NCBI RefSeq assembly: GCF_000299935.1
Contig: NZ_AMRL01000006.1
Span: 1 to 64,000 of the forward strand
Reading direction: 5' to 3'
DNA length: 64,000 bases
From: Oceanibaculum indicum P24
GTDB lineage: Bacteria; Pseudomonadota; Alphaproteobacteria; Oceanibaculales; Oceanibaculaceae
The notes under the pieces were generated by a model. That model did no database searches, was not told the origin of the DNA, and was given only the letters and a program-made list of their open reading frames with translations. Positions 29,424 to 34,285 of the stretch are shown piece by piece. Within the stretch, counting starts at the first letter, position 1; the number at the start of each line of letters is the position of its first letter. The position numbers and the translations under genes were made by a program.

Positions 29424-30149
29424 ATGAGTGCGTTGCGTTCGTTGCTGTTCAATATGGCGTTCTTCGGCTGGACCGCGATCCTGTGCATCGGCGGGGTCCC
29501 GCTGCTGGCAGCGCCGTCGGGCTGGATCATCGCCGCGCAGCGCTTCTGGGCGCGGGGCGTGATCGGGCTGCTGCGGCTGCTGGCCGGCACCGGCTACACA
29601 GTCATCGGCCGGGAGAACCTGCCCGACGGTCCCTTCGTCATTGCCTCGAAGCACCAGTCGGCCTGGGACACGATCATCTTTTTCCTGCTGCTGGACCGCC
29701 CGGCCTATGTGCTGAAGAAGGAATTGCTGGCGATCCCGCTCTATGGCTGGTACGCGCAGCGCGCCGGCCATATCGCGGTGGATCGCAAGGCTGGCGCAAA
29801 GGCACTGCGCACGCTGCTGGAGGATGCGCGGCGGGCTATCGCGCATGGCATGGTGCCGGTGATCTTCCCGCAGGGCACGCGGACCGCCCCCGGCACGCAC
29901 CGGCCCTACCAGCCGGGCATCGCGGCGCTGTACAAGGGGCTGGACGTGCCGGTGGTACCGGTGGCGCTGAATTCCGGCCTGTTCTGGGGGCGGCGTGCCT
30001 TCCGCAAGGAGCCCGGGACCATCCGGCTGGAGTTCCTGCCGGCGATCCCGCCGGGGATGGACCGGCCCGGCTTCATGGCCGCGCTGGAGGGAGCCATCGA
30101 GCAGGCGACGGACCGCCTGTCAGCGGAAGGCTTATCCCCAGAAGCCTGA
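29424..30149 (+). CDS. plsC: 1-acyl-sn-glycerol-3-phosphate acyltransferase
   Basis: A 241-residue membrane-bound acyltransferase. It carries the catalytic HX4D motif KHQSAWD (about 76-82) and the substrate-binding motif FPQGTR (about 151-156). It adds the second fatty acid to lysophosphatidic acid, making phosphatidic acid for membrane lipids. One N-terminal membrane helix is present. It is the last gene of the ftsEX group, 10 bases after the YdcF-type gene. Confidence 0.92.
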   Translation: MSALRSLLFNMAFFGWTAILCIGGVPLLAAPSGWIIAAQRFWARGVIGLLRLLAGTGYTVIGRENLPDGPFVIASKHQSAWDTIIFFLLLDRPAYVLKKELLAIPLYGWYAQRAGHIAVDRKAGAKALRTLLEDARRAIAHGMVPVIFPQGTRTAPGTHRPYQPGIAALYKGLDVPVVPVALNSGLFWGRRAFRKEPGTIRLEFLPAIPPGMDRPGFMAALEGAIEQATDRLSAEGLSPEA

Positions 30150-30232
30150 GATTTGTCCTTGTGAATCCTGGGGACAAGGCCGATCTGCAAGGCCTGGCAG
30201 GAGGTTATCCGGCAACGGTCGGTGGAAACATA

Positions 30233-30251
30233 ACAAGAACATATTTATTGT
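30233..30251. promoter_or_regulatory. Imperfect palindrome upstream of nrdJ
   Basis: ACAAGAA (30233-30239) and TTATTGT (30245-30251) form an inverted repeat with one mismatch around CATAT, in the only AT-rich patch between plsC and nrdJ. It could be an operator; it does not match the NrdR box well. Confidence 0.3.
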
Positions 30252-30306
30252 CCGCCGCCGCCAAGCTGGTACACTATCTGGCCGTTCGATTGCGTTGGAG
30301 CGTTTC

Positions 30307-32616
30307 ATGGCGGGTATCGCGGCGATTTCGCAGCAGATCTGGGACATGAAATACCGGCTGAAGCGGGCCGATGGCGCGCCGCTGGACCGCACGCTGGAGG
30401 ATAGCTGGCGCCGTGTGGCGACGGCGCTTGCCGCGCCGGAGCGCGACCAGGCGCTGTGGGAAGGCCGCTTCTACGAGGCGCTGGAGGATTTCAAGTTCCT
30501 GCCCGCCGGCCGCATCCTGGCCGGGGCCGGCACCGACCGCAGCGTCACCCTGTTCAACTGCTTCGTCATGGGCACGGTCCCGGACGATATGGCCGGCATC
30601 TTCGAGCATCTGAAGGAAGCCGCGCTGACCATGCAGCAGGGTGGTGGCATCGGCTATGATTTCTCGACGCTCAGGCCCAAGGGCGCGCCGGTGAAGGGGG
30701 TGGGGGCGGATGCATCCGGCCCGCTGCCCTTCATGGATGTGTGGGATGCGATGTGCCGCACCATCATGAGCGCCGGCCACCGCCGCGGCGCGATGATGGC
30801 GACGATGCGCTGCGACCATCCCGACATCGAGGATTTCATCGCCGCCAAGCAGGAGGCGGGCCGCCTGCGCATGTTCAACCTGTCGGTGCTGGTGACCGAC
30901 GCCTTCATGCAGGCGGTGCAGGAGGGCGGGTCCTGGGACCTGGTGTTCGGCGGCACAATCTATCGCACGGTCGAGGCGCGCGAACTGTGGGACCGGATCA
31001 TGCGGGCAACCTACGCCTATGCCGAGCCGGGGGTGATCTTCATCGACCGGGTGAACAACCGCAACAACCTGCATTACTGCGAGACCATTGCCGCCACCAA
31101 CCCGTGCGGCGAGCAGCCGCTGCCCCCCTATGGCGCCTGCCTGCTGGGCTCGATCAATCTGGCGAAGCTGGTGGAGCGTCCGTTCGAGAGCGATGCCGCG
31201 ATCGATATCGGCCGGCTGGAGGCGCTGGTCGCGACCGCCGTGCGCATGATGGACAATGTCACCGACGTGTCGCGCTTCCCGCTGCCGCAGCAGCAGCATG
31301 AGGCGCAGGCAAAGCGGCGCATCGGGCTTGGCGTCACCGGGCTGGCCGACGCGCTGATCTTCTGCGGCGCGCGCTATGGCAGTGCCGATGCGGTGGCGCT
31401 GACCGAGCGCTGGATGGCGGCGATCCGTCGTGCGGCCTATCTCGCCTCGGTCGAGCTGGCGAAGGAGAAGGGGCCGTTTCCGCTGTTCGACCGGGACCAC
31501 TATCTGGCAGGCGAGACGATCCAGGAGCTGGATGCGGATGTGCGGGACGCTATCGCCCAGCACGGTATCCGCAACGCGCTGCTGACCTCCATCGCCCCGA
31601 CCGGCACCATCTCCATCCTGGCGGATAATGTGTCCTCGGGCCTGGAGCCGGTGTTCAGCTTCGAATATACCCGCACCGTGCTGATGCCCGACGGCAGCCG
31701 CAGGGAGGAGCAGGTCACCGACTATGCGCTGCGCCTCTACCGCCGGCTGAAGGGGGAGACCGCGCGGCTGACCGACGCCTTCGTCGATGCCCAGCGGCTG
31801 TCGCCCAGCGACCATGTGGTGATGCAGGCCGCCGTGCAGAAATACATCGACAGCTCGATTTCCAAGACCATCAACATCCCGGTCGATCTGCCGTTCGAGC
31901 AGTTCAAGAATGTCTATCGCATGGCCTATGAGTCCGGCTGCAAGGGCTGCACCACCTACCGGCCGAACGAGATCACAGGCGCCGTGCTGCAGGTGAAGCC
32001 GGAGACGGTGGAGGGCACACAGCAGCCGGAGCTGGCGCTGGACAAGCCGGAGGCAAGGCCGGCAGACCAGTTCGAGGCCGGCGCCGTCATCTACATGACG
32101 CAGCCGCTGAACCGGCCGGAGGAGCTGCCGGGCAAGACCTACAAGATCAACTGGCCGGAGAGCGAGCACGCGCTCTACATCACCGTGAACGATGTGATCC
32201 AGGATGGGCGCCGCCGGCCGTTCGAGATTTTCATCAACTCCAAGAACATGGAGCATTTTGCCTGGACCGTGGCGCTGACCCGCATGATCAGCGCGGTGTT
32301 CCGGCGCGGCGGCGACGTCTCCTTCGTGGTGGAAGAGCTGAAGGCCGTGTTCGACCCGCGCGGCGGACAATGGATGGGCGGGCGCTATGTGCCCTCCCTG
32401 CTGGCCGCCATCGGCGATGTGATCGAACGCCACCTGATCGATATCGGCTTCATCCCGCAGCCGGAAGAAAAGCGCCAGGGCCATCTCGCCGAACGCAAGG
32501 TGGTGGGGCTCGCCGACCAGCGCCTCCGGCAATGCCCGAAATGCGGCCAGCCCAGCCTGATCCGGCAGGAGGGCTGCGATACCTGCACCTCCTGCGGCTA
32601 TTCCAAGTGCGGGTGA
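30307..32616 (+). CDS. nrdJ: Adenosylcobalamin-dependent (class II) ribonucleoside-diphosphate reductase
   Basis: A 769-residue reductase that makes deoxyribonucleotides using vitamin B12. Key parts: LFNCF (Cys85, one of the redox pair), NPCGEQ (Cys267, thiyl-radical position), TSIAPTGTISILADNVSSG, a TSCPD domain (about 605-700) and a C-terminal zinc-ribbon/Cys-rich tail ending GYSKCG. The family is oxygen-independent. No cobalamin riboswitch fits in the 157 bases upstream; an imperfect palindrome is present there. Start at 30307 has GGAG seven bases upstream; the longer open frame overlaps plsC and is rejected. Confidence 0.95.
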   Translation: MAGIAAISQQIWDMKYRLKRADGAPLDRTLEDSWRRVATALAAPERDQALWEGRFYEALEDFKFLPAGRILAGAGTDRSVTLFNCFVMGTVPDDMAGIFEHLKEAALTMQQGGGIGYDFSTLRPKGAPVKGVGADASGPLPFMDVWDAMCRTIMSAGHRRGAMMATMRCDHPDIEDFIAAKQEAGRLRMFNLSVLVTDAFMQAVQEGGSWDLVFGGTIYRTVEARELWDRIMRATYAYAEPGVIFIDRVNNRNNLHYCETIAATNPCGEQPLPPYGACLLGSINLAKLVERPFESDAAIDIGRLEALVATAVRMMDNVTDVSRFPLPQQQHEAQAKRRIGLGVTGLADALIFCGARYGSADAVALTERWMAAIRRAAYLASVELAKEKGPFPLFDRDHYLAGETIQELDADVRDAIAQHGIRNALLTSIAPTGTISILADNVSSGLEPVFSFEYTRTVLMPDGSRREEQVTDYALRLYRRLKGETARLTDAFVDAQRLSPSDHVVMQAAVQKYIDSSISKTINIPVDLPFEQFKNVYRMAYESGCKGCTTYRPNEITGAVLQVKPETVEGTQQPELALDKPEARPADQFEAGAVIYMTQPLNRPEELPGKTYKINWPESEHALYITVNDVIQDGRRRPFEIFINSKNMEHFAWTVALTRMISAVFRRGGDVSFVVEELKAVFDPRGGQWMGGRYVPSLLAAIGDVIERHLIDIGFIPQPEEKRQGHLAERKVVGLADQRLRQCPKCGQPSLIRQEGCDTCTSCGYSKCG

Positions 32617-32617
32617 C

Positions 32618-32989
32618 TCAGAAGCCCAGCCAGAATTCACGCTTCGAGGGGTCGAGGCCATTCTGGGTGTTCACCAGAGAGCCGTAGAGCGTGCCGGGCA
32701 AACTCATGGCACCGAACCCCGCGTTCAGCACTGCGCCGAAGATGCCGCCATTGACCTTGTCCAGCTCTGCGTCCGTCAGCTGATCGTTCCGCGCCCGGGT
32801 GAGCAGATCGCCGAACGCCGCCAGGTCATTGGTTTCCAGCGCATGCCCTTCGTCCCTGGCGAAGGCCACGATGTGCGGTGCCGGATCGGCATCCTGGGGC
32901 AGGGTGGCGACGGTGGACTGAAAACGCTGCTTGAGGGCCGCATCCTGCTGCAACGCCTGAATGAAACCGCCGATATTTTCCAGGGACAT
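32618..32989 (-). CDS. Nif11-like leader / double-glycine precursor peptide (RiPP or bacteriocin candidate)
   Basis: A 123-residue protein. Residues 1-60 resemble the Nif11 leader family: MSLENIGGFIQALQQDAALK start, then PHIVAFARDEGHALETNDL. It continues to a double-glycine cleavage motif TDAELDKVNGG (Gly81-Gly82). The last 41 residues (83-123, starting IFGAVLNAGF, ending REFWLGF) would be the released core: small-residue and Gly-rich, no Cys, no Ser/Thr-Cys pattern for lanthionines. No modifying enzyme, C39 peptidase or ABC exporter is nearby. The start has GGGAGG eight bases upstream. It converges with nrdJ (stop codons 1 base apart). Confidence 0.72.
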   Translation of the reverse strand: MSLENIGGFIQALQQDAALKQRFQSTVATLPQDADPAPHIVAFARDEGHALETNDLAAFGDLLTRARNDQLTDAELDKVNGGIFGAVLNAGFGAMSLPGTLYGSLVNTQNGLDPSKREFWLGF

Positions 32990-33088
32990 CTCTGATCCTC
33001 CCGATTGAACACAGGAGCATGTGTAGCGTCCCTGCGGCGGGCCTGCCTGACTGCCTGTCCCGAAAGGACAGGCATTTCGTCCCGGCCA

Positions 33089-33118
33089 AGAAAAAGGGCG
33101 ACCCAAAGGCCGCCCTTT
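33089..33118 (-). terminator. Rho-independent terminator downstream of leuB
   Basis: On the minus strand AAAGGGCG (33111-33118) pairs with CGCCCTTT (33093-33100) around a 10-base loop, followed by TTTTTCTT. It ends the leuC-leuD-leuB message before the Nif11-like gene. A second hairpin, TGCCTGTCC/GGACAGGCA at 33052-33074, lies in the gap to the Nif11-like start. Confidence 0.85.
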
Positions 33119-33140
33119 CCATAAAGAAGATGTTGTTGGA

Positions 33141-34256
33141 TCAGGCCGACAGCTTGTCCAGCTCGCGCAGCAGCGTGTCGCCCATCACCGTGGTCGAGAC
33201 CTTGGCGGTGCCCGGCACATAGATGTCGGCGGTACGGAAGCCGGCATCCAGCACGTTGTTGATGGCCTTCTCGATCATGTCGGCGTCCTCGCCCATGTCG
33301 AAGGAATAGCGCAGCAGCATGGCGAAGCTCAGCAGCTCGGCCAGCGGGTTCGCCATGTCCTGGCCGGCGATGTCCGGGGCGGAACCATGCACTGGCTCGT
33401 ACAGCGCCATACGGCGGCCGGTGGTCGGGTCCTCAAGGCCGAGCGAGGCCGAGGGCAGCATGCCGAGCGAGCCGGTCAGCATCGCCGCGCAGTCGGACAG
33501 GATGTCGCCGAACAGATTGTCGGTGACGATTACGTCGAACTGCTTCGGGTTGCGCACCAGCTGCATCGCGCAGTTGTCGGCATACATGTGGTGCAGCTCG
33601 ATGCCCTTGCCTTCGGTCTCATGCAGCTTGGTCACCGTCTCGCGCCACAGCACGCCGGTGTGCATGACATTGGCCTTCTCGACGGAATGCACCTTGCCGC
33701 CGCGCTTGCGGGCGAGGTCGAAGCCGACGCGCGCCACGCGCTCGATCTCCGGCGTCGTATAGACCTGGGTATCGACGGCCTTCTTGGTGCCGTCCGGCAG
33801 GGTTTCTACGCCCCGCGGCTCGCCGAAATAGACGCCGCCGGTCAGCTCGCGCAGGATCAGGATGTCCAGCCCCTCGACCAGCTCGCGCTTCAGCGTGGAG
33901 GCATCGGCCAGCGCCGGGAACACGATGGCCGGTCGCAGATTGGCGAACAGGTCCATTTCCTTGCGCAGGCGCAGCAGGCCGCGCTCCGGCTTCTTCTCGA
34001 ACGGCAGGTCGTCCCACTTCGGGCCGCCGACCGAGCCGAACAGCACGGCGTCCACCGCCAGCGCGTCGGCCATGGTCTCGTCGGTCAGCGGGGTGCCATG
34101 CGCGTCCAGCGCGGCGCCGCCGACCAGGCCTTCCTGAATGTCGAAGGAAACGTGGCGGCGCTTGTCCATCCAGTCCACCACGCGGCGGACCTGACGCATC
34201 ACCTCCGGCCCGATGCCGTCACCCGGCAGGACCAGCAGCTTCTTGTTCGATGCCAT
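33141..34256 (-). CDS. leuB: 3-isopropylmalate dehydrogenase
   Basis: A 371-residue NAD-dependent dehydrogenase of leucine synthesis, oxidising 3-isopropylmalate with loss of CO2. Family motifs: [11 protein letters not shown], substrate-loop [34 protein letters not shown] and the adenine-binding [15 protein letters not shown]. The N terminus [12 protein letters not shown] sets the start; the upstream extension lacks similarity. It is the last gene of leuC-leuD-leuB. Confidence 0.97.
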
Positions 34257-34285
34257 TTCTTGTTCTTTCCGTCTTTCGGGGGCGA

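Follow-up and report, generated by a model that had tools for sequence, protein, structure and literature searches.

We examined a stretch of 64,000 nucleotides from the marine bacterium Oceanibaculum indicum P24 (contig NZ_AMRL01000006.1, positions 1 to 64,000), which we refer to as the window (contig C6 of the genome) and which carries a gene for a Nif11-leader peptide precursor. We conclude that the product of this gene is probably a peptide that is cleaved after a double glycine and exported in trans by the single NHLM-type exporter of the genome, and that it belongs to a dispersed, co-regulated set of precursors without dedicated modifying enzymes. The pairing of Nif11 leaders with NHLM exporters is known; what is new is an operator shared by scattered, cysteine-free precursors and the exporter locus. 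A Nif11 precursor without an enzyme gene nearby resists interpretation, as its partners cannot be told from its surroundings. The shared operator sorts such orphan precursors into a group, connects that group with a single exporter and points to a candidate regulator, and it offers a handle on the function of orphan peptides and on whether Nif11 leaders act as an export address without modification.

The precursor and the exporter encoded on another contig

An earlier note on this DNA, made by reading the letters alone, had placed an open reading frame at 32618-32989. We found it at exactly these positions, on the minus strand, which the note had left unsaid. The parts of the gene are:

32618..32989, minus strand: Nif11-leader peptide precursor gene, 123 aa plus stop, with TIGR03798 and PF07862 matches and orthologues in two congeners
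32744..32989, minus strand: leader, residues 1-82 (the TIGR03798 span), ending VNGG, with C39 cleavage predicted after GG
32621..32743, minus strand: core, residues 83-123, Cys-free, the first part hydrophobic and Gly/Ala-rich, then a conserved tail
32621-32671, minus strand: conserved core tail NTQNG[LF]DPSKREFWLGF, the last 17 residues, 94% identical to the congeneric orthologues

The precursor reads MSLENIGGFIQALQQD...ELDKVNGG followed, after the predicted cut, by IFGAVLNAGFGAMSLPGTLYGSLVNTQNGLDPSKREFWLGF, giving a leader of 82 aa and a core of 41 aa that contains no cysteine. The Nif11-type leader, the double-glycine site and the Cys-free core had all been proposed from the translation, and each is supported by profile matches and orthologues. 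The leader scored above the cut-offs of TIGR03798 (33.7 bits against 32.3; residues 1-82, profile positions 1-68 of 68) and of PF07862 (23.9 bits against 23.8), matches that are real but marginal. We aligned the ten precursors of the genome to compare their leader ends and cores. QLTDAELDKVNGG closes the leader and the core follows, in agreement with the reference context of a ELSDEELEAVAGG-like ending and a variable core. AlphaFold2 predicted helices in the leader (mean pLDDT, the predicted local distance difference test, of about 59-81 per 10-residue block), and pLDDT was mostly below 50 in the core. The core holds five Ser/Thr residues, and its best 19-residue hydropathy is 1.31.

The note had called this gene an orphan, which is true locally but not genome-wide. 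The genome, which is 98% complete, holds nine TIGR03798 matches: the target on C6, two on C1, an adjacent pair on C5, and one each on C11, C18, C19 and C20. The seven outside C5 are single genes amid unrelated neighbours, and their Cys-free cores of 13-44 residues have little in common. The exporter locus itself contributes a tenth precursor, NHLP-like, which scored 41.6 bits, under its cut-off of 50.9. Exactly one C39 peptidase is encoded in the genome, on contig C3, in an operon with NHLM HlyD, ABC1, ABC2 and a TolC protein. This operon matched the NHLM exporter families TIGR03794, TIGR03796 and TIGR03797 with 324.6, 1090 and 912.7 bits, respectively, against cut-offs of 156.2, 853.3 and 709.4. 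The claim that the window contains no exporter or modifying enzyme held for C39 peptidases and LanC-like enzymes, neither of which we found in it; the sole genomic copies are on C3 and C5.

Upstream in the exporter locus (L019:3953-8419, on C3) lie genes for a STAS protein, a SpoIIE/SiaA-like phosphatase, a methyltransferase, an ABC ATPase and an RsbW-like protein. The STAS, SpoIIE-type phosphatase and RsbW-like proteins form a set of partner-switching regulators, and the ABC ATPase and the methyltransferase stand just before HlyD. The bare exporters of two further genomes of the order, G002 and G003, are without this set, the ABC ATPase and the methyltransferase. A subtilase with RTX repeats and a P-domain heads the exporter locus (L076:9999-12290 and L077:9340-9561); in G003 only a subtilase remnant precedes the NHLP precursor, and in G002 the subtilase is apparently split in two pieces.

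We searched the genome for three kinds of modifying enzyme: LanC-like, YcaO and radical SAM. One LanM (DUF4135 plus LANC_like) is present on C5 (L022:9892-12654). The C5 pair of Nif11 precursors, which have Cys-rich cores and leaders 72% identical to each other, lies directly before it (L022:9199-9870), and the three genes probably form a class II lanthipeptide cluster. YcaO (PF02624) had no match at E <= 0.01 in the genome, so that a precursor of the thiazole/oxazole-modified microcin (TOMM) azole type is not indicated. The nine radical SAM enzymes in the genome were judged to be housekeeping from their sequences by eye only, and none seen among them resembled those acting on ribosomally synthesized and post-translationally modified peptides (RiPPs). 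We consider the core of our precursor likely to be unmodified.

The shared operator and its candidate regulator

Upstream of the precursor gene are two direct half-sites resembling RRACRRAATG, 22 bp apart. Counted from the start codon, the distal core lies at -90 to -94 across the scattered precursors that carry the pair, and the proximal core at -68 to -72. At our precursor gene the half-sites are:

33073..33083, minus strand: distal operator half-site GGGACGAAATG; the whole tandem site scores 14.6 bits (leave-one-out, paralogues only)
33051..33061, minus strand: proximal half-site GGGACAGGCAG of the operator, spaced 22 bp from the distal half-site; five paralogues and two orthologues have it at a near-equal distance from their start codons

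The same operator precedes six of the seven scattered Cys-free precursors (the C6 target, C1a, C1b, C18, C19 and C20) as well as both orthologues of the target. With leave-one-out matrices built from the paralogues of the window genome alone, the left-out sites scored 14.6-31.9 bits at a near-fixed distance from the start codon. When 855 kb were scanned on both strands, the top unrelated position reached 10.4 bits, and every higher-scoring position belonged to the precursor set, the AraC locus or the exporter locus. Across the genome, the operator pattern had 12 matches compared with 4 for a reversed control. Two further sites, from outside the training set, both lie in the exporter locus, which brings the sites with 22-bp spacing to eight (six precursors plus these two). 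One, at C3:13923, separates a divergent AraC-family gene from the subtilase-RTX gene at the head of the locus; the other, at C3:20338, falls ahead of HlyD, in the interval from the phosphatase gene to the methyltransferase gene. Because the pattern was derived from precursor promoters, the sites at the exporter and AraC loci are an independent test of it. The four remaining matches (C3:51061, C9, C21 and C47) are in coding sequence or misplaced and equal in number those of the reversed control; we rejected them. The operator was not found at the LanM-linked pair or in the region directly upstream of the NHLP gene, and a generic scan of the precursor promoters for sigma-70, EcfG and sigma-54 sites turned up no element shared by the set.

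The AraC-family protein (AraC_binding_2 plus HTH_18; gene at C3:12776-13819) is 81-83% identical across three genomes. Operator copies lie beside its gene in G002 and G003 also, so that the adjacency is seen in all three genomes, and G002 has a further site before a 1284-aa gene near the AraC gene. Tandem direct repeats with 22-bp spacing upstream, together with a linked AraC-family gene, are what an AraC/XylS regulon would present, and we consider this protein the most likely candidate to bind the operator. Its relatives at 31-36% identity adjoin NHLM exporters on plasmids of Azospirillum thermophilum, Shinella sp. H4-D48 and Pseudoroseomonas cervicalis; other relatives adjoin large secreted proteins or unrelated genes, and the link to export loci is therefore recurrent, not exclusive. 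AraC-family proteins at NHLM/NHLP loci (L076, L077, L086, L088 and L093) have a similar W-I-R-x-L C-terminus (WIRTL, WIRSL or WIRRL), which is perhaps a mark of a subfamily.

In the mechanism that we propose, the Nif11 leader would carry the precursor to the NHLM-type exporter on the other contig, the C39 domain would cut after Gly-Gly, and the ABC/HlyD/TolC machine would release the 41-residue Cys-free peptide. The operator, bound by the AraC-family regulator, would co-ordinate the scattered precursors, the head of the exporter locus (subtilase and NHLP precursor) and the methyltransferase-exporter genes. Export by this route is supported indirectly, by the single C39 peptidase, by the shared operator and by co-occurrence: of the four genomes compared within the order, three (the window genome, G000, together with G002 and G003) have the exporter, Nif11 precursors and the AraC-family regulator, and G001 has none of them. 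A single negative genome makes this co-occurrence no more than suggestive. The earlier note had allowed for maturation by distant machinery. For export this fits, given a complete NHLM C39 exporter on another contig and an operator shared with its locus; for modification it is less supported, as the LanM stands beside two Cys-core precursors that lack the operator and neither YcaO nor a RiPP-like radical SAM enzyme was seen.

Several observations weigh against this explanation. The TIGR03798 match of the precursor is marginal, and its two orthologues fall under the cut-off of 32.3 (28.3 and 24.2 bits). One of the seven scattered precursors, that on C11, lacks the operator, and no operator was found at the bare exporter operons of G002 and G003 within the stretches scanned. 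The exporter-operon site of G000 is 81 or 99 bases from candidate start codons, unlike the spacing at the precursors, and the NHLM loci scanned in other genera gave no operator match above background (9.3 bits at best). Another type of modification is possible, given that three enzyme kinds were searched and that the exporter operon includes a methyltransferase. More tentatively, and with somewhat less than even confidence, we suggest that the AraC-family regulator might co-activate unlinked, enzyme-free Nif11/NHLP precursors, secreted RTX proteins and the NHLM exporter, and that the Nif11 leader might be a pure export address for unmodified signals or surface peptides and not a docking site for RiPP enzymes.

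Conservation of the precursor and other explanations

The closest loci to the precursor gene are in Oceanibaculum pacificum and an alphaproteobacterial metagenome-assembled genome, and we found no plasmid homologue. Compared with the window copy, the congeneric orthologues are 76-78% identical in the core but 57-60% in the leader. The ratio of nonsynonymous to synonymous divergence (dN/dS) against the orthologues of two congeners is well below 1 in both parts; together with the equal length of these orthologues, this supports coding status and indicates that the core is under purifying selection. Because the core is more conserved than the leader, this member does not have a hypervariable combinatorial core of the prochlorosin type. 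The earlier note had held that a core as conserved as the leader, in a housekeeping context, would speak against a precursor. Such conservation is indeed present, but the context is an export regulon and not housekeeping. A conserved core favours one specific target rather than a hypervariable weapon, and the peptide could act as a signal, a bacteriocin or a surface peptide. We also observed that the last 51 coding nucleotides of the core (32621-32671) are 92% identical between species, compared with 64-66% in the leader. Their synonymous divergence (dS) is 0.35 over about a dozen sites, against 1.7-2.0 in the leader, possibly reflecting constraint at the DNA or RNA level.

We asked how other explanations fare against these results. 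The gene could be a degenerate or spurious open reading frame, a functionless relic of the precursor family, and the genus does offer one case of decay: what appears to be the G003 counterpart of the C19 precursor (L045; G003:C17:440252-440485) has a similar Nif11 leader with GA instead of GG and, in place of a core, a short tail, VVGAMTRNRYL. No operator was detected around that gene in the stretch scanned. Our precursor, however, is full length in three genomes, with GG, operator and conserved core, and the dN/dS values argue the same way; a relic is highly improbable, and the intact state of this gene beside the decay of the C19 counterpart points to a retained function. An explanation that is also improbable, though less extremely so, is that the precursor is a LanM substrate in trans, the single LanM dehydrating Ser/Thr of the scattered cores before export as in prochlorosin systems, where dispersed precursors use one promiscuous enzyme in common (PMC10783134). 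The genome does encode a LanM, and the five Ser/Thr residues of the core could serve. None of the seven scattered cores contains a cysteine, though, so thioether rings could not form; the scattered leaders are 27-39% identical to those of the LanM-linked pair, and that pair stands outside the operator set. LanM processing of our precursor is thus unlikely, and dehydration alone is possible.

Another reading agrees with ours on export and regulation and differs in the role alone: the peptide could be an unmodified bacteriocin, of the class II microcin-like or the two-peptide type, and insert into the membranes of competitors. The double-glycine leader, the C39 exporter and the Gly/Ala-rich hydrophobic stretch fit such a peptide, as does the similarly hydrophobic core of the C20 paralogue. 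Against it, we saw no immunity gene between the two housekeeping neighbours of the precursor gene, the core is conserved between species beyond the leader, and the paralogue cores vary widely in length and chemistry, several being hydrophilic. We therefore regard a bacteriocin role as doubtful, yet clearly better placed than a LanM substrate.

Relation to known systems and the flanking genes

In 2010, Haft et al. described Nif11-derived peptides (N11P) and their multiplicity, together with the NHLM exporter, and noted that some precursors adjoin the exporter and that others are not clustered with their enzyme (PMC2887384). The Oceanibaculum system shares with those (PMC2887384) the leader type, the GG site, several paralogues per genome and the exporter families TIGR03794/03796/03797. 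It differs in having seven scattered Cys-free precursors without a linked enzyme, six of which share an operator with the exporter locus. Dispersed Nif11 precursors with shared machinery encoded elsewhere are also found with prochlorosins and synechococsins (PMC10783134), but those need one promiscuous LanM and cysteine, whereas the Oceanibaculum LanM has a Cys-core pair of its own. With class II microcins and unmodified double-glycine bacteriocins there is likeness in the GG leader, the C39 exporter with HlyD and TolC, and a possibly unmodified Cys-free core; unlike class II microcins, our precursor has a much longer, Nif11-type leader, a conserved core, an NHLM exporter and no linked immunity gene. 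For the operator, the parallel is the AraC/XylS regulator MtlR, with two 15-bp blocks at -72 to -58 and -50 to -36, a 22-bp offset (PMC4514859). As at PmtlE (PMC4514859), two direct-repeat blocks 22 bp apart lie upstream of the promoter with an AraC/XylS-family regulator nearby, but the predicted regulon of Oceanibaculum takes in dispersed peptide precursors together with an exporter locus and secreted RTX proteins. In the open-licence papers that we searched, we found no report of Nif11 precursors under an AraC regulon or of Oceanibaculum lanthipeptides, and no description of enzyme-free, Cys-free Nif11 precursors tied to an exporter locus by a common operator.

An array on a plasmid of Azospirillum sp. 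B510 (L092, 5035-10404) has about eight NHLP-leader precursors before an NHLM exporter; their leaders are nearly the same, and their cores, hydrophobic and Cys-free, vary, most of them ending in KW. The LanM-linked precursors on C5 have the cores GSPYCMFTKGCYCIFTK and GSPYCMTTKGCYCMCTGKFTENWF, and the probable lanthipeptide cluster has counterparts in two congeners (L055 and L056). Three Nif11 precursors stand beside the LanM of G003; one of them (L055:8948-9226) has a degenerate core, CGG then ESRDQNRRVEIIII, and is apparently decaying.

The location between nrdJ and leuB, as earlier described, was confirmed by Pfam matches of both neighbours. Three features flank the precursor gene, the two genes among them being outside the system:

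30085..32616, plus strand: nrdJ-type ribonucleotide reductase with TSCPD domain, the convergent neighbour (Pfam)
33141..34265, minus strand: leuB, on the same strand and upstream of the precursor gene (Pfam, synteny)
33090..33121, minus strand: putative terminator of leuB, a hairpin with a T run after it, in the gap before the precursor gene (RNAfold energy of -20.8 kcal/mol for 33090-33125)

By synteny, the nrdJ side is not kept, with another gene in place in both congeners, and leuB adjoins the precursor gene in three congeners, the precursor gene lying directly downstream of it. The hairpin was not listed by a simple terminator scan. With a strong hairpin and T run after leuB, the precursor gene is probably transcribed from its own promoter.
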